Assembly (NCBI GenBank): GCA_003131315.1
Contig: PKUV01000156.1
Location: 1 to 46,939 of the forward strand
DNA length: 46,939 nt
Reading direction: 5' to 3'
Source of the DNA: Acidobacteriaceae bacterium
Lineage (GTDB): Bacteria > Acidobacteriota > Terriglobia > Terriglobales > Acidobacteriaceae
Below the pieces are notes generated by a model, which was not told the origin of the DNA, did not search any database, and was given only the letters and a program-made list of their open reading frames with translations. The translations under genes and the position numbers were made by a program. Shown here in pieces: positions 5,884-40,530 of the stretch (positions within the stretch are counted from its first letter, which is position 1; each line of letters begins with the position of its first letter).

Positions 5884-5968
5884 CAGTGAATAGTGGTCGG
5901 TGGTCAGTGGTCAGTTAGCGAAGCGTTGATAGATGCGAGTTCACGAGCAACTGACCACTAGCCACTGT
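5884..5968. repeat. AGTGGTCAGTT inverted repeat
   Basis: AGTGGTCAGTT (5906-5916) and AACTGACCACT (5949-5959) are perfect complements, flanked by degenerate GTGGTCAGTG units. The element fills the gap between pcm and mqnP, and its right arm includes the pcm stop codon. Probably an interspersed palindromic repeat. Confidence 0.65.
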
Positions 5969-6620
5969 CCACTGCTCCCTCCACCAGCGGCACAAACCGG
6001 CAACCTTCGAGGATCTTTACCTCGGGCCGTCCGCTGACTTTGTAGATCAATTGCAATTCCTGAATGGAGGGCGGGCCGACCGGCACTATCATGCGTCCGC
6101 CATCGCGCAACTGAGCGAACAGAGCTGGCGGCATTTCGGGGGTTGCGGCAGAAACAAGAATGGCGTCGAACGGCGCGTACTCTGCCCAACCTTGGCCGCC
6201 ATCGCCGACTCTGATCTTCACGTTGCGATATTCCAACCGATGCAGCGTACTTTCCGCCGAGGCGGCCAGTTGCGCGTGGCGCTCCACCGAATACACTTCG
6301 GCGCAGAGCAGCGAAAGCAATGCCGTCACGTAGCCAGAACCGGTGCCGATTTCGAGGATGCGTTCATTGGCTTGAAGAGCGAGGTGCTTGAGCATCGCGG
6401 CCACGATGTAAGGCTGCGAGATGGTTTGGCCCTCGCCGATGGGCAGCGGGTGATCTTCGTAGGCGTCCTGCCGGAAAGACTCCGGGACAAACTCGTGCCG
6501 CGGCACTTTGCGCATGGCGTCAAGCACGCGAAGGTCGCGGATTCCGCGATCGGCAAGCTGCGTGCGAACCATTCTTTCGCGCTGCAGTTGCGGAGAATCG
6601 CGTTGGAAGGGGAAGCTCAT
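5958..6620 (-). CDS. pcm: Protein-L-isoaspartate O-methyltransferase
   Basis: The family motif GEGQTISQP (residues 62-70) and the SAM-binding loop ILEIGTGSGY (88-97) are present, with the closing RFVPLVEG typical of Pcm. The enzyme methylates L-isoaspartyl residues of damaged proteins so that they can be repaired. I use the ATG at 6620 (220 aa), close to family length. A TTG start at 6674 would add 18 residues with no counterpart. No strong ribosome site decides between them. Confidence 0.92.
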   Translation of the reverse strand: MSFPFQRDSPQLQRERMVRTQLADRGIRDLRVLDAMRKVPRHEFVPESFRQDAYEDHPLPIGEGQTISQPYIVAAMLKHLALQANERILEIGTGSGYVTALLSLLCAEVYSVERHAQLAASAESTLHRLEYRNVKIRVGDGGQGWAEYAPFDAILVSAATPEMPPALFAQLRDGGRMIVPVGPPSIQELQLIYKVSGRPEVKILEGCRFVPLVEGAVDSG

Positions 6621-6696
6621 GGCTTCTGTCTTGTGGCGCGGGTACCGTTCCTCTACTCCGTCGAACGCGGACAACCTGCCCGGCTTTCGCCCGGCT

Positions 6697-6718
6697 GGAC
6701 AGCCGAGGGCGGCTGTCC
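6697..6718. repeat. GGACAGCC palindrome
   Basis: GGACAGCC (6697-6704), a 6-nt spacer, then GGCTGTCC (6711-6718), followed by CTAC. A near copy with the same GGCTGTCCCTAC tail occurs at 11373-11397. It lies between pcm and the threonine synthase gene. Confidence 0.7.
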
Positions 6719-6728
6719 CTACACGATT

Positions 6729-7937
6729 TCAGTACGGCCCGATGATTCCACCAATACTGCGTGCAGTGGGCGGCTCTGGTCGCGCCGTTCTTTCTTGCGC
6801 TTCGATCATGTCGAGATACTTGTAGGCCGTTCCCGTATTGAAGAGCACGACTTTGTCTTCGACGCGGAAGAAGCCACTGGCGCGCAGCTTCTGGTACGCA
6901 ACGAGTGATGCGGCTCCTTCGGGCGCGGCAAATACGCCTTCCACGCTGGCCCAGTGCCGCGTGGCCGCGAGGATTTCCTCGTCGGTCGCCGCGACCGCAG
7001 TGCCGTGGCTTTTCTTGAGGATGTCGAGAATCAGGTAGTCGCCATACGCTTTGGGGACGCGCAGGCCGGAGGCAAACGTCTGCGCGCCGGCCCACATTTC
7101 GGAAGCGCTCTTCCCTGCTTCCCAGGCCTTCACGATCGGCGCACAGCCCGCAGCCTGCACGGTGATCATTTTCGGGCGCTCGGAACCGATCCAGCCCAGC
7201 TCCTCCATCTCATCAAAGGCCTTCCACATGCCGATCATGCCCACGCCGCCGCCGGTAGGATAGATGATGCCTTGCGGAAGTTTCCAGCCGAGTTGTTCGG
7301 CAACCTCATAGCCCATCGTCTTCTTGCCTTCGACGCGGAACGGCTCTTTGAGGGTCGAGACATCGAACCATCCTTCTTTTTTGTCTTTGCGCTCGGCCAC
7401 CATGCGGCCACAGTCGCTGATCAAGCCGTCGACCAGCGTGACGTGCGCGCCGTAGTAGTCGGATTCCATGCGATTCGCCATGGGCACATCTTTCGGCATA
7501 AAAATATGGGCTTCGATGCCCGCCGCTGCGGCGTACGCTGCCAGCGCGCCACCGGCGTTTCCGGCCGAAGGAGCAGCCAGTTTTTTCAAACCATAATGTC
7601 GAGCCATCGTCACGGCAGCCGACATGCCGCGCGCCTTGAACGAACCGGTCGGATTCAGCCCTTCGTCCTTGATGAAGACATTCGCGTGTTCGCGGCTGGG
7701 GAGCATGGGCGTAAATCCCTCGCCGAGCGTGACGGGCGAAGCGTCGGGGAGAACTTCGGCGTAGCGCCACATGCTGGCCACGCGACCTGATAAATTTTCG
7801 GGGCGCAATTTCCCTTTCAGGCTGGCGAGATCGTAGCGGACGTAAAGTACTCCGCCGTCTTGGGGACAGATATTCTGCGGGCCATCGGCGGAGAGATGCT
7901 CTCCGCAACGGGTGCATTCGAGGTAGGCAATTCGCAT
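6729..7937 (-). CDS. thrC: Threonine synthase (PLP-dependent)
   Basis: The 402-aa fold-type II PLP enzyme carries NPTGSFKARG with the Schiff-base Lys101 and a glycine-rich phosphate-binding loop (PTGGGVG). A cysteine-containing N-terminus (ECTRCG, then CPQDGG) resembles a small zinc knuckle, as in archaeal-type and Gram-positive threonine synthases. The reaction is O-phosphohomoserine to threonine. I chose the ATG at 7937, where the conserved MRIAYLECTRCG begins; an ATG six codons upstream is possible. No other threonine-pathway gene lies near. Confidence 0.9.
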   Translation of the reverse strand: MRIAYLECTRCGEHLSADGPQNICPQDGGVLYVRYDLASLKGKLRPENLSGRVASMWRYAEVLPDASPVTLGEGFTPMLPSREHANVFIKDEGLNPTGSFKARGMSAAVTMARHYGLKKLAAPSAGNAGGALAAYAAAAGIEAHIFMPKDVPMANRMESDYYGAHVTLVDGLISDCGRMVAERKDKKEGWFDVSTLKEPFRVEGKKTMGYEVAEQLGWKLPQGIIYPTGGGVGMIGMWKAFDEMEELGWIGSERPKMITVQAAGCAPIVKAWEAGKSASEMWAGAQTFASGLRVPKAYGDYLILDILKKSHGTAVAATDEEILAATRHWASVEGVFAAPEGAASLVAYQKLRASGFFRVEDKVVLFNTGTAYKYLDMIEAQERTARPEPPTARSIGGIIGPY

Positions 7938-7960
7938 CGATGGAAAGGATAGCATTTCAG

Positions 7961-32497: not shown

Positions 32498-33997
<1,500 letters not shown>

Positions 33998-34014
33998 TTA
34001 AAGTCGAACTCAAC

Positions 34015-34509
34015 ATGAAGAACCGCACCGAAACTCTGGAGATCGGATCGCGCGCCCCAGACTTTTCCCTGGGAGCAGCCAACCGCGAGGGCACATTCAC
34101 TCTCGGTAGTCTGCTCGAGCGGGGCACGCTGATTATCGAGTTTCTGCGCGGCACTTGGTGACCAAACTGCGCGAAGCGCATGACTCAGTTTGAGTCGCGG
34201 AGACCGGAACTTGAAACAGCGGGAGCACAGTTGGCGTTTATTGCTGCCGAAAAACGGGATGGCGTGTGGAGGCCGGGAAAATTCCTGGAGAAGCATCCCA
34301 TCGCTAGCGTCTTTCTGCTCGATGAGGATCGGGCCGCGACTAAAGCCTACGGGCTCCATCACGCGCTCGGCACCGATGCGATCAACATCGCGCACCCGGC
34401 AACTCTCGTAATCGATCGCGGAGGCTTGGTGCGCTACATCTATCGCGGCGATAACCAGCTCGACCGCGCGCCGCTGGATGAAGTCCTTGGAGCTTTGCTT
34501 AGACTTTGA
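34015..34509 (+). CDS. Candidate selenoprotein: peroxiredoxin-like, UGA as Sec49
   Basis: The frame from ATG 34015 runs 48 codons to TGA at 34159-34161, then continues in the same frame to a stop at 34507-34509. Read through, the protein is 164 aa with the AhpC/TSA plan: LEIGSRAPDFSLGAANREG, LLERGTLIIEFLRGTW, then U-PNC, KRMTQFESRRPELETAGAQL, FLLDEDRAATKAYGL and ATLVIDRGGLVRYIYRG. Family members read RG.WCP.C here, so the TGA replaces the peroxidatic Cys and leaves UxxC with Cys52. The alternative is a TGC to TGA nonsense mutation. There are no frameshifts or other stops. The start lacks a strong ribosome site. Confidence 0.75.
34162..34199 (+). promoter_or_regulatory. Putative bacterial SECIS element
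   Basis: Right after the TGA are two perfect hairpins: TGCGC-GAA-GCGCA (34168-34180) and GACTC-AGTTT-GAGTC (34182-34196), the latter with an extra T-G pair outside. The second loop begins 25 nt after the TGA, holds five bases and has G in its second position. This fits the published bacterial SECIS pattern (small apical loop with a G in its first two bases, roughly 16-37 nt from UGA). The same bases also encode conserved protein, so chance cannot be ruled out. Confidence 0.6.
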
Positions 34510-34547
34510 ACGAGATACGGAATTGAATTTTGGACGTAAGAGGTAAC

Positions 34548-35171
34548 ATGAAGAAAACATTTTCGCTGACATCGCTCATCCTGATCGCAAGTTTCGCCTG
34601 CGCGCAAACTGCCCTGCCCACCGGCACCGCCGTCAAGATGAAACTCGAAACCACGCTCGCAACCTTCAGCTCGAAAGCCGGAGATCCATTCTCGGCAAGA
34701 GTCACTGAGCCGGTCGTGGTGGACGGCAAAACCGTGATTCCGATCGGCGCCACCGTCGAAGGCCGCGTCACCAAAGCGAACGAACCGCGTCGCATTGCCG
34801 GCAAGCCCACCATCGCCATCTTCCCCGAAAACCTGGTTCTCCCTAATGGAGACAGGTTCATGCTGAACGCCTCGCTGGTTGACACCAACGCTCGCCACGG
34901 CACCGACGTCAACACGGAAGGGCAGTTCAAAGGCGCTGGCCACAACGGCAAAGATCTCACCGAAATCGGCATGGGTACCGGCGGCGGAATGCTCGTCGGC
35001 GGTCTGGCAGGCGGCGGCAAAGGCCTGCTCATCGGCGGAGCCGTCGGCGCCACCGTGACCGTCACGCACTGGCTCGCCAAACACCGCTCCGCGATGCTTC
35101 CCGCAGGCACGGAACTGGTGATGGAATTGAACCGGCCGATGACAATGACTGGCGCCAGCGGCGGCCAGTAG
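34548..35171 (+). CDS. Secreted protein with glycine-rich segment
   Basis: The ATG at 34548 follows AAGAGG. The 207-aa product has a signal peptide (MKKTFSLTSLILIASFACAQ). A beta-rich part follows, with TAVKMKLETTLATFSSKAGD, PFSARVTEPVVVDGKTVIPI, GATVEGRVTKANEP. A glycine-zipper stretch (GTGGGMLVGGLAGGGKGLLI, about 149-168) comes next. The tail ends AGTELVMELNRPM. The beta part vaguely resembles VirB10/TrbI-like C-terminal domains, which I cannot confirm. Probably periplasmic or outer-membrane associated. It starts 38 nt after the selenoprotein candidate. Confidence 0.8.
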   Translation: MKKTFSLTSLILIASFACAQTALPTGTAVKMKLETTLATFSSKAGDPFSARVTEPVVVDGKTVIPIGATVEGRVTKANEPRRIAGKPTIAIFPENLVLPNGDRFMLNASLVDTNARHGTDVNTEGQFKGAGHNGKDLTEIGMGTGGGMLVGGLAGGGKGLLIGGAVGATVTVTHWLAKHRSAMLPAGTELVMELNRPMTMTGASGGQ

Positions 35172-35298: not shown

Positions 35299-37554
35299 TC
35301 ACCCGCTCACTGCCAGCAGATCCTCTTCCGCCAGCAACTCCAGTTCCATCCATCCTTCCACCGGCAATGCGTCGACCGGCAGATGGTTCTGCCACACACT
35401 GAAGCGCAGGCGTAGCCGGACGGTCAGCAGATCCGAGCTTTTCGGTCCTCGCACTTTGTCAATTCCCAGCGGAGCGGCGAGCAGCCACGTCAGGGGCAGG
35501 CGAAACTCAAAATTCCGGACGAGCGCCACCCGCGCAATATCTCTCGAATCCGTCGAATCTGCTAACACCTTGCCCCGCTCCGTCACTTTCCACGACTGCA
35601 TGCGGCCTCCATCCACTGCCGCACCCAACCGCAGTTCGCGCCGGGGCTTGGCTGCATGGTTCGCCCACGACTCCAGATTCACCACCACTTCGAATCCGTC
35701 TTCCGGCACTTTGCCGGCGAAATCCAGCCGGCCGTACACATACTGCTCGTCGATCCCGGCAAACACTTCATCCATCAGAAACTGCTTGCCGTGCATGGCG
35801 CCCGAGCGCTGGTCAGCCGTATAACACGCCGCCCCCATCCACTCGAAGTAGCGCACCATGTCGCCCGAGATCCGGGGATGGATATAGGCGCTCTGCGGCG
35901 TGAACGAAGGCCGCGCCACTCCCTCGGTGATCGGCTGCGCCAGATAATCCGGCGGGGTCCCGCCCAACGCCTGGTAAACATTCGACAGGTGTTTGCGGTA
36001 GAGTTCGTCGAAGTCGCGATCGTTCGCCGAGTGGTGCTCCGGTCCGTACCACCAGTTCCAGTCGCTGCCCTCGGCGATCAAGATCTCTTCAAACGCCAGC
36101 TTGCGTTGTTTCTCGGTTGCTCCCGGTGCCGCCTGCGCGTAGAAATTGCGCGCGTGATACAGGTAGTCCCAAGCCTTGTTGTCCTCCGGCGCTCCAATCC
36201 AAACGTTGAAGTTCGCGTTGATCCACGACCCCGGCGCCAGCGACTTCAGATGACCGGCGTTCTTGTGGCGCGCAATCGCCTCCGAAACCGTCACCGCTTC
36301 GATGCCCGCATCATTCTGCAAAGCGTCATAGAATCTCCGCAAGAATTCTCGCCCCGAATGCGGGTAGTATTCCCAGGCATTCTCGCCGTCCAGAATGATG
36401 GGGACCACGGCATCTTGCCCGTTCGCAACAATCGGCTGCGCCGATTCCTTAATCTTGTGGATGAGATTATTAGCAGCGTCTTGCGGCGGCATTCCCGAAT
36501 ATACGAACCCGATCAGGTCGGAGAGCGTGTGGTCGCGGAACAGCAGATTCATCCGTGTATCGGCATTCTCGTAGCGATAAATCGTGTACAGCCGGTGCGC
36601 CAGATCCGAATTCAGATGACCATAACCGTCGCGTGAGAAATTTGTCCCCAGACTCCGTCCCAGCACGCCTTCGTCGGTCGCCATCCACTGCACTCCAAGC
36701 CGGTGTGCAATCGCCAACGCCTCTTCGGAAACGCTGCCCTCCGACGGCCACACCCCTTGCGGCCGCACCCCAAACACTTTTTTGTGCAGATCCAGTCCGC
36801 GCTGCAATTGCTCGCGAGCGTCCTCAGGATGGCGATAGCGGTTCTGCGGCAAGCCCAGCCCCGGCGAGGAAACCGCCCCCATCTGCGTGTCGCACACCAG
36901 CGGCAGAATGGGATGATAAAAAGGCGACGTCGAAATCTCGATCAGGCCTTTCTTTGCCGCCTCCGCATGCACCGGCAGAACCCGGCTGAGCAGTTCGCTC
37001 TCCCGCGCCATCACAAACCGCTGGTCTTCGAGCGTATAGTTCCGGCCTTTGCGGATCAGTTCCGCTACGTCTTTTTCCGCCAGAAAATACTCGTCGAACC
37101 ATCCAATCTGCGAGAGCACCTGCAAGTCGGTGAGATCCTGAGCCTGAAAATATTTCTCCGCTCGCTCGGGCGTCCCCCCCGCCCCATGAAATTTCTCCCA
37201 CAGCTCGCGGTACCGCGGATAGCGCCCGATTACATTCACCGTATTCGCCTGAAACAAATATTCCAGCGCAAACCGCCGTTCCCCTTCCGTCAGGTCCTTC
37301 GCGGGCTTGCTCGCAACCTGCAGAAAAGGGTCCTGAGCCCCGCCCGAAACATAATCCTGAATCTGCGCGATCAGCGAGGGCACCAGATTGAACGTCTGAT
37401 GCACCTGTGGGAACTCGTCCAGCAGCTTCACCATCCCGTAGTAGTCTTTCAAAGCATGGAGGCGTGTCCAAGGCAGGCGATACTGACCCGTCACCAGGTC
37501 CTTGTAGAACGGCTGGTGCTGGTGCCACAGAACGACAACGCGCAGTTGGGCCAT
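35299..37554 (-). CDS. Glycoside hydrolase family 57 enzyme
   Basis: 751 aa from the ATG at 37554 (CGGAAG upstream). The GH57 motifs are HQHQPF (residues 11-16), GVWPSEGSVSEE with nucleophile candidate Glu272, and ILDGENAWEYYPHSGREFL with acid/base candidate Asp389. GH57 enzymes act on alpha-glucans (alpha-amylase, 4-alpha-glucanotransferase, amylopullulanase). The long C-terminal part (about 550-751) is a beta-rich DUF1925/1926-like or related domain. There is no signal peptide, so it is probably cytosolic. No other glycogen gene is nearby. Confidence 0.9.
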   Translation of the reverse strand: MAQLRVVVLWHQHQPFYKDLVTGQYRLPWTRLHALKDYYGMVKLLDEFPQVHQTFNLVPSLIAQIQDYVSGGAQDPFLQVASKPAKDLTEGERRFALEYLFQANTVNVIGRYPRYRELWEKFHGAGGTPERAEKYFQAQDLTDLQVLSQIGWFDEYFLAEKDVAELIRKGRNYTLEDQRFVMARESELLSRVLPVHAEAAKKGLIEISTSPFYHPILPLVCDTQMGAVSSPGLGLPQNRYRHPEDAREQLQRGLDLHKKVFGVRPQGVWPSEGSVSEEALAIAHRLGVQWMATDEGVLGRSLGTNFSRDGYGHLNSDLAHRLYTIYRYENADTRMNLLFRDHTLSDLIGFVYSGMPPQDAANNLIHKIKESAQPIVANGQDAVVPIILDGENAWEYYPHSGREFLRRFYDALQNDAGIEAVTVSEAIARHKNAGHLKSLAPGSWINANFNVWIGAPEDNKAWDYLYHARNFYAQAAPGATEKQRKLAFEEILIAEGSDWNWWYGPEHHSANDRDFDELYRKHLSNVYQALGGTPPDYLAQPITEGVARPSFTPQSAYIHPRISGDMVRYFEWMGAACYTADQRSGAMHGKQFLMDEVFAGIDEQYVYGRLDFAGKVPEDGFEVVVNLESWANHAAKPRRELRLGAAVDGGRMQSWKVTERGKVLADSTDSRDIARVALVRNFEFRLPLTWLLAAPLGIDKVRGPKSSDLLTVRLRLRFSVWQNHLPVDALPVEGWMELELLAEEDLLAVSG

Positions 37555-37685
37555 GACTTCCGATTCCACTTAATACATCGGCAAATTTTCAGTTTAATTC
37601 ATTCGGCAATTTTCCAGCGTGGTATCGCCAGGCGCAGCCCGGCTTGCGCATCTGACTATTCTCCGGCATTTACAATAAGTCTCCC

Positions 37686-38692: not shown

Positions 38693-40330
38693 CTACACCA
38701 CCTCAATCACCTGGTGATCGTGGCAATCGGGATGGATCTTCCGATAGAGATTCGCGAGCAGTTCCGGCCCATACCGCGCCACAAAGCTCACTCCTGCGAC
38801 CTCGCGCTCCTGGAGCGCCTTGTGCGGGAATACGGCGTGGCTCAAGGCATCCGCGTGCCGCGTGATGACCTCATTGCGTAGCAGTTCCGCCCGTGACGCC
38901 CGCCGATGGAGCCGGTTGATTTGATACCACATCCTCGTCCGGGCGCGGTCCGCCGCTTCGATGAGTGTTGAATCCAGTTTGCCGATCGATTCGCGAACCG
39001 CCGACATCGACTGCTCAACCCTCGCATAGGCTTCCTCAAAGCGAGCCTGCAACTCCGGTGGCAGCGAACGAGCGGCAATAGCTTCTCGAACTTTTTCGGG
39101 GCCGTGAAACAAATCGGGCAGCTCCAGTTGGTAGCGCGTCAGAATGCGCTCGGGCTTGGCTTCGAGCAACGTCGCCGAAAAACGCGGCAGGATCGGCGTC
39201 ACTCGTCCCAGTAGTTTCTCGTAGACGACGGCGGCCTGCGCGAAGTATGCGACTTCGGCCGCTCCGCCGGTATAAACCAGCGTCGGCAGCAGGTAGTCCT
39301 GTACCACGGGACGAAACAGCACATTCGGGTTGAACTTCTCTGGAGCCTCGTCAATCCGGCCAAGCAGCTCTTTAGGCGAGATCCGCTCCTCACCCACGGC
39401 AAACTGGCCGCCGTTGGGGCCATTATTCCCGCGCCGCACTACCGTGCGCGCCCCATTCTTCACTTCAAAAAGCAGCGTGGTCGCCGAAGTCACCTTGACT
39501 TGCTGGTGATATCCCGCCGCCTCGAGCGCCTTGCCCCGCGCCAGCAGTGCCTCGTCGAGTTCGGAGGCGCGTTCGATCGCCGCGCGGAACAGGGGTTTTG
39601 CGAGAGCATGGAAATCTTTGTCTGCCGGATCAAGCAGGACGACGCCCCAATCCGCAAACAGCCGCGCAAACAGCAGGGCAAACGCGCTGCCCAGAGTTTC
39701 ACCCGGACGATACGCCTGGCGCAGCCACGTCGCGACCTCGGAATCTCCCAAAAACGCGGCTGCGCACTCGACCACCGGCTCAATCTCCGGCCCGAACTTG
39801 ACGGTCCCCACAGGCGCATCGGCCACGGCGTTACCGTCAAACGCGCGGCTTTCCACCGCGAACCGTTCCGGAAGACCGTGCTCGGAAAGCAGCGACACGT
39901 GGTTGACCTCGGCCAAATCGTGATCCTCGGTCGCGAGCCAGAAAACTGGGACGCAGTCCACTCCGACCGCCGTCGCCTGTTCCGCGAGCTTGACCGCCGT
40001 CAGCGCTTTGAAGATTGAAAACAGGGGCCCGCCGAAGAGACCGACTTGCTGTCCCGTAACCGCCGTCAGCGCTCCTCGCCTGAGCCGTTCAATATTGGCA
40101 AGCGTCTTCGGAGACGCGCCCCACGCACGATTCTGCCGCTCGAGAATTTCGCTCACCTGGCCGCGACGCGCGGCGTCGTAACCGACGCGCTGGGATTCGT
40201 CCTTCACCCACTCGGAAAAAATCGGTGAACGTGGATACATCCCGCGGACGGAAGGAGTGTAGGAAAGATAATCGAGGAAGAGACGTGTAGTGTGCGGAAT
40301 CTGCTGGAACGGCAAACACTGCGCCTTCAT
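38693..40330 (-). CDS. bshC: Bacillithiol synthesis cysteine ligase BshC
   Basis: The start at 40330 has GGAGAG upstream and gives 545 aa, the family size (the open frame extends further without support). Family motifs are AVTGQQVGLFGGPLFSIFKA (90-109), FWLATEDHDLAEVNHV and LPTLVYTGGAAEVAYFAQAA. BshC adds cysteine to glucosaminyl-malate in the last step of bacillithiol synthesis. BshA and BshB are not in the window. The C-terminal coiled-coil helix (about 420-510) is also typical. Confidence 0.94.
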   Translation of the reverse strand: MKAQCLPFQQIPHTTRLFLDYLSYTPSVRGMYPRSPIFSEWVKDESQRVGYDAARRGQVSEILERQNRAWGASPKTLANIERLRRGALTAVTGQQVGLFGGPLFSIFKALTAVKLAEQATAVGVDCVPVFWLATEDHDLAEVNHVSLLSEHGLPERFAVESRAFDGNAVADAPVGTVKFGPEIEPVVECAAAFLGDSEVATWLRQAYRPGETLGSAFALLFARLFADWGVVLLDPADKDFHALAKPLFRAAIERASELDEALLARGKALEAAGYHQQVKVTSATTLLFEVKNGARTVVRRGNNGPNGGQFAVGEERISPKELLGRIDEAPEKFNPNVLFRPVVQDYLLPTLVYTGGAAEVAYFAQAAVVYEKLLGRVTPILPRFSATLLEAKPERILTRYQLELPDLFHGPEKVREAIAARSLPPELQARFEEAYARVEQSMSAVRESIGKLDSTLIEAADRARTRMWYQINRLHRRASRAELLRNEVITRHADALSHAVFPHKALQEREVAGVSFVARYGPELLANLYRKIHPDCHDHQVIEVV

Positions 40331-40530
40331 CGGCAGCTCTCCGGACATATCTCGATACACCGGCGTATTCTTGCGATCCGCATAGATTCTCAGTCTCTCA
40401 AAAGCCAATGCCCGGGAGTTTTCGCGCGCTTTCAAAAGTAGCACTTCCCAGGCAGCTAGCGCCAAACTCAACTACATCTGATGATGCAGAAGCGCTCAGG
40501 TTGCAGAGAGTGGGAGAAATTCGGGTAAGG

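Follow-up and report, generated by a model that had tools for sequence, protein, structure and literature searches.

The locus at 34015-34509 (+) raises the question of whether a gene with a TGA in the middle of its reading frame is a broken gene or the gene of a selenoprotein. The window, as the whole stretch of 46,939 nucleotides analysed here is called, is contig 45 of the genome of a soil acidobacterium, an assembly of 6.0 Mb that is 99.7% complete. Translated from its ATG start, the locus comprises 164 codons; codon 49 (34159-34161, +) is the only internal TGA, and the terminal stop is TGA as well. The Pfam matches, to Redoxin over residues 11-158 (70.1 bits) and to AhpC-TSA over residues 10-142 (65.1 bits), both cross the internal TGA, which bears out the earlier note on this DNA, where one in-frame TGA was said to divide a coherent peroxiredoxin-like frame of the thioredoxin fold. 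In the list of open reading frames the gene is split into 33859-34161 (100 aa, TTG start) and 34180-34509 (109 aa, ATG start); a fragment of either 48 or 109 aa had been predicted, and the latter was found as such while the former was listed as the frame of 100 aa. At the aligned start position most near relatives have ATG as well, and L063 and L066 have GTG. Ordinary gene calling is likely to read such a gene as broken, and its product will probably be split or dropped in annotation because no NCBIfam model reaches its cut-off on this protein; the best match, the SelL-related redox protein NF040769, scores 38.8 bits over residues 26-118 against a cut-off of 120 bits.

Homologues were searched in 399 genomes of the class and 396 genomes of the phylum, with at most nine candidates scored per genome. 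Among the matches listed, every one above 90 bits holds exactly one TGA, 22/22 in the class sample and 17/17 in the phylum sample, the two sets overlapping in five genomes. A scan of the contigs of named genomes (Acidobacteriaceae, Terriglobales and Terriglobia MAGs) yielded 14 loci of 68-88% identity, 13 of them with the TGA at the same place. The exception is L071, whose frame breaks at an ambiguous base in a draft contig, and it is also the only one of the 36 close homologues (35-88% identity, the gene of the window included) without TGA in the column of codon 49. A core set of 35 rows, consisting of the 22 class matches and 13 named loci, was chosen by score and intact frame, and TGA at this column in 35/35 rows follows from that choice; neither TAA nor TAG occurs there. 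The preceding RGTW is invariant in the core set, and the residues that follow are Pro50 (34/35), Asn51 (34/35) and Cys52 (35/35; codon at 34168-34170, +), the last being the second Cys three residues on, from which a UxxC motif had been proposed, and the expected resolving Cys. Forms without TGA first appear, among the matches listed, at 89.1 bits in the phylum and 88.2 bits in the class, and forms with Cys in the column of codon 49 were met only among the weaker homologue matches. Close relatives thus keep the in-frame UGA where other homologues have Cys, the pattern that the earlier note had named as support for selenocysteine. The matched stretches carry no other stop, L071 with its ambiguous base on a draft contig being the exception, and additional disabling mutations of this kind, which would have spoken for a pseudogene, were not seen.

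Coding constraint was estimated from the gene of the window and 12 near relatives. Upstream of the TGA (codons 1-48) the dN/dS ratio is about 0.16 and downstream (codons 63-164) it is 0.14, and pN is lower than pS in 78/78 pairs in both parts alike. Purifying selection acts on both sides of the TGA, in agreement with the claim that the frame is intact on either side, and a pseudogene is thereby excluded.

The machinery for selenocysteine (Sec), proposed earlier as a check, is complete in the host genome, with selB at 381 bits (cut-off 242), selA at 535 bits joined, selD at 363 bits joined and tRNA-Sec at 68 bits with the anticodon UCA, the last also found by ARAGORN. The selD gene (G000:C12, locus L022, outside the window) has one in-frame TGA of its own, in a UASK context as read by eye. 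Table 1 of PMC13188914 lists the motif UxxK for Sec-SelD, which UASK matches, and because of its in-frame TGA in this context the host selD is probably itself a selenoprotein gene. Carriers were compared in the form of the 21 other class-sample genomes with a homologue match above 90 bits. All of these have tRNA-Sec over the cut-off (21/21) and 19/21 have selA over it, the two misses being G034 (88% complete) and G067 (81% complete). selB was assigned to 20/21, with 14 over the cut-off among the matches listed, G061 found separately and a further five deduced from E values of at most 5.3e-99. In G386 (locus L031, 99% complete) the gene, selA and tRNA-Sec are present and a full-length selB was not found; given its selA and tRNA-Sec, an assembly gap and a recent loss of selB are both possible. 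As selB is over the cut-off in 282/399 genomes of the class, its presence in the carriers is a consistency check and weak as a test. In G236, which belongs to the genus of the host genome, selB is present with no close homologue of the selenoprotein gene (best E 1.2e-10), and the gene was thus lost or missed there.

A SECIS element had been expected inside the coding region just after the UGA. Synonymous conservation is in excess in the 13 codons that follow the TGA: where two core sequences share the amino acid, they also share the codon in 76% of cases over codons 50-62, compared with 40-52% in the eight other blocks. At columns 23-28/34-39 from the TGA, RNAalifold chose a hairpin UGRCUC-AGUUN-GAGYC(R), which in the gene of the window reads UGACUC-AGUUU-GAGUCG (34181-34197, +; loop G at 34188). 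It is paired in 96.6% of the cells of the core alignment with a covariation score of 0.225, values reached by 0/500 shuffles, and two of the five measures do not exceed the shuffles (pairs changed on both sides, 121/500; further pair types, 500/500); the covariation counts are inflated by relatedness, and it was from this very alignment that the structure had been obtained. The pair 25-37 covaries, being AU in 15, GC in 10 and GU in 9 of the 34 distinct rows and never broken. Residues 57 and 61 of the core rows are Thr-Ser (16), Ala-Ser (9), Ala-Pro (9), Val-Pro (1) and Thr-Pro (0), as if the RNA pairing limited the amino acids.

The published SECIS model comprises a loop of 3-9 nt, a stem of 4-16 bp, a spacing of 16-37 nt and an energy of -7.5 kcal/mol (PMC13188914, legend of Fig. 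2), and has a G as the first or second loop nucleotide, in most cases with G or U after it (PMC13188914). A scan with the geometric criteria of this model, an uninterrupted stem and -5 kcal/mol or better detected a hairpin in 32/35 core rows and 19/22 outer Sec homologues, compared with mean fractions of 5% (core) and 11.7% (outer) when the codons were reshuffled synonymously 200 times. The loop, stem and spacing agree with the model at any energy in the gene of the window and in 33/35 core rows; L029 and L041 lack an uninterrupted hairpin, L034 reaches -4.2 kcal/mol, and the outer Sec rows that miss the threshold are L081, L085 and L097. After the Cys codon of the eight Cys homologues tested, a hairpin of -5 kcal/mol or better was found in 0/8, with L056 at -4.7 kcal/mol. 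The expectation of a SECIS within the coding region is therefore supported by the hairpin at 34181-34197 (+). In the outer members the stem may differ wholly (UCGCGC-AGUU-GCGCGA in L079) with the G/U loop kept, and an acidobacterial set of changing stems and constant loop could help SECIS prediction. By itself the hairpin of the gene in the window has -6.2 kcal/mol against -7.5 kcal/mol in the published model, and the 45-nt region folds at -16.5 kcal/mol into another fold. Hairpins at least as good follow 52/1254 TGAs of the window (4.2%); the lone hairpin is not significant, and the SECIS signal consequently rests on the alignment. The motif pattern, with one mismatch allowed, occurs a single time in the 6.0 Mb genome, at the selenoprotein gene. 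One further candidate, the TGA at 6729-6731 (-), separates two ORFs of one frame (5958-7955, -) and has a good hairpin; it was set aside because by eye it looks like the junction of two ordinary neighbouring genes, and it indicates that hairpins alone give false positives.

Three other readings of the TGA and its RNA were weighed against this evidence. A pseudogene, in which a nonsense mutation has struck the gene of a normal CxxC protein, or an error of sequencing or assembly would account for fragments in the ORF calling, for a TGA that would end ordinary translation and for the one homologue, L071, whose frame is lost at an ambiguous base, but not for the same TGA in the 22 class matches listed above 90 bits and in 13 of the 14 named loci, across genera and families, with dN/dS near 0.15 on both sides and no TAA or TAG at the codon in the core rows; it was rejected on TGA conservation and dN/dS and keeps virtually no probability. 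Reading of the UGA by a near-cognate tRNA such as that for Trp, or a regulatory stop, in either case with no Sec, is highly improbable even though compatible with the sequence alone, since a SECIS-like hairpin accompanies the Sec form and tRNA-Sec is present in every one of the other carriers; reassignment of the stop to Trp in particular is disfavoured because homologues with WCPxC have Cys rather than Trp in this column and because TGA also serves as the terminal stop of the gene. The remaining alternative concerns the RNA element. A longer helix (34160-34169 with 34186-34196; 34160-34196, +) excludes the short hairpin, and it belongs to the MFE fold of the window RNA alone and is paired in 91.5% of the core cells. 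Most of this pairing falls on the codons of Asn51-Cys52 and Gln58-Phe/Leu59, its covariation score is 0.080 against 0.225 for the hairpin, and it is the G[GU]-loop hairpin that recurs, at shifted places and with other stems, in the outer members, so that the long helix is quite unlikely to be the SelB-binding element.

From the machinery, the conservation of the TGA and the SECIS, we infer with high confidence that Sec is inserted at codon 49, and these three lines of evidence equally support the 164-aa product with Sec49 that was proposed for the locus. SelD and SelA would make Sec-tRNA-Sec(UCA), which would be carried by SelB, and SelB would be recruited by the SECIS hairpin inside the coding sequence, with its stem UGRCUC/GAGYC and a loop of 3-5 nt that has G followed by U or G and starts about 25 nt past the UGA. 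Codon 49 would then be decoded as Sec to give a protein of 164 residues with the motif RGTW-Sec-P-N-Cys.

In a profile search against solved structures, the best matches of this protein were the Bcp peroxiredoxin 2cx3 (74 bits) and ResA (3c71, 62.6 bits). Sec49 falls on the Ser of FSPVC in the alignment with 2cx3, and Cys52 falls on its Cys, which we take to be the peroxidatic one; in the alignment with 3c71, a ResA variant, Sec49 falls on the first Cys of GTWCPHC. In ResA the first Cys of CxxC is the attacking residue. The claim that Sec stands in place of the peroxidatic Cys was thus not upheld, because the residue aligned with Sec49 is Ser in Bcp (SPVC) and the first Cys in ResA, and the Cys of Bcp is matched by Cys52. 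True peroxiredoxins have a conserved catalytic Arg, presumably the Arg of Bcp that aligns with position 128 (34396-34398, +), where the window gene has Pro128 and the core set has Pro, presumably the cis-Pro, in 31/35 rows and Arg in 4/35. An AlphaFold model from 13 sequences (pLDDT 75.7, falling below 50 at residues 1-6 and 116-126; pTM 0.78) has residue 49 directly ahead of helix 50-61, and the first Foldseek matches include Bcp4 (3hjp) with TMq 0.81 and the thiol-disulfide oxidoreductase 4nmu with the lower TMq of 0.67. The protein combines the PF08534/PF00578 domain with a UxxC motif. PMC13188914 gives PxxxTxxC or PxxxTxxU as the active-site motif of peroxiredoxins; residue 42 is Glu, Val or Ile and residue 46 is Gly in 35/35 core rows, and Sec49 therefore does not end such a motif.

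The profile alignments, Pro128 and the AlphaFold and Foldseek results point to a peroxiredoxin-like fold with an active site that looks thioredoxin/ResA-like. Since Sec49 aligns with the first Cys of ResA and Cys52 with the Cys of Bcp, we regard the product as a probable UxxC redox enzyme of thioredoxin-like type, built on a peroxiredoxin-like fold. A mechanism as UxxC oxidoreductase is the favoured reading, held with fair confidence: the Sec49 selenol, at the start of the helix, would attack a disulfide or a peroxide, Cys52 would resolve the intermediate as a selenenylsulfide, and a thioredoxin-type reductant would reopen it. That the selenoprotein acts instead as a peroxidase, with Sec49 or Cys52 reacting with peroxide, is rather unlikely; the Bcp-type proteins are its best sequence and fold matches, their Cys aligns with Cys52 and Arg does occur at position 128 in four core rows, but the PxxxTxx(C/U) pattern is missing around Sec49, with Gly at residue 46 throughout, and Pro in 31/35 rows where Bcp has Arg fits ResA-type oxidoreductases better, on the roles assumed above.

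ResA and related thiol-disulfide oxidoreductases (3c71, 1st9, 4nmu) have a similar fold, and their GTWCxxC aligns with GTWUPNC, the difference being Cys where this protein has Sec. ResA is also membrane-anchored, and no leader is seen by eye in this protein. Among selenoproteins, Table 1 of PMC13188914 catalogues a UxxC Redoxin family (PF08534) and a Prx-like thiol:disulfide oxidoreductase (PF00578; UxxC, UxxU), Prx-like 1 and Prx-like 3 are listed in Table 2 of PMC2398784, and UxxC Prx-like/Redoxin-family members are catalogued also in PMC1088965. These bacterial families have the same Pfam Redoxin/AhpC-TSA domain and a Sec-first UxxC; the present clade is set apart from them by description, through RGTWUPNC and its occurrence in Acidobacteriota. 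It has no Cys member above 90 bits among the matches listed, whereas 2,740 and 2,608 Cys homologues are given for the marine families (PMC2398784, Table 2). For Acidobacteria, a count of 2006 gave four selenoproteins of three families (PMC1794560), and one acidobacterium with three known selenoproteins is recorded (PMC12013277); the available portion of PMC5029168 does not name Acidobacteriota. No title on this acidobacterial clade was found in the literature searched, which lay outside the subscription literature. The UxxC Prx-like selenoprotein as a type is already known, and the Acidobacteriota clade, Sec-only in the samples searched, looks new; the gene adds to the acidobacterial selenoproteins.

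For the history of the clade a tree was built from 68 rows, of which 58 are Sec and 10 are Cys, with L071 left out. Forty-five rows, all of them Sec, group with the gene of the window (support 94/61), and adjoining this group is the Cys pair L050/L051 (RGTWCPFC), with a support of 97/88 for the joint clade. The Sec/Cys labels need five changes in total, two of the 17 phylum matches (L085, L086) fall outside the 45-row group, and the deep part of the tree is uncertain because of long branches. On plasmids no Cys orthologue was found; the best identity is 33.1% (best 15 of 66 records) and all 66 are below 60%. As a rule, Cys forms outnumber Sec forms. We tentatively consider, at somewhat less than even chances, that the UxxC redox enzymes with RGTWUPNC and its allies form an ancient clade within Acidobacteriota that is Sec-only and in which Sec was kept across several families with no reversion to Cys; if so, Sec would be required for the chemistry of the clade.

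No linked redox partner was seen near the selenoprotein gene. The divergent neighbour is an enolase gene (32498-33796, -; Pfam Enolase_C/N). Downstream lies an ORF of 207 aa (34548-35171, +) with an N-terminus that is signal-peptide-like by eye and with no Pfam match for the frame 34530-35171, followed by a GH57 glycoside hydrolase gene (35299-37569, -; Pfam Glyco_hydro_57). In the 35 core loci, the own locus included and many of them short, a match was obtained for enolase in 24, for the downstream ORF in 21 and for GH57 in 20; the numbers are 7, 8 and 8 in 12 wider regions, one per genome. All three are missing from the regions of L111 and L112, which belong to another family. The bacillithiol biosynthesis gene bshC (38693-40471, -) lies about 4 kb from the selenoprotein gene, and a bacillithiol link was dropped, bshC being found in 0/12 of the relatives' regions of 13-18 kb (tblastn, E 1e-10).

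Other Prx-like genes with one in-frame TGA, for example with YRGxWUPYC, were also encountered in Acidobacteriota (L052, L054, L055, L057, L085, L086, L089, L090, L093, L094 and L097-L099), most of them with hairpins of other sequence, and the phylum seems to be rich in Prx-like selenoproteins.
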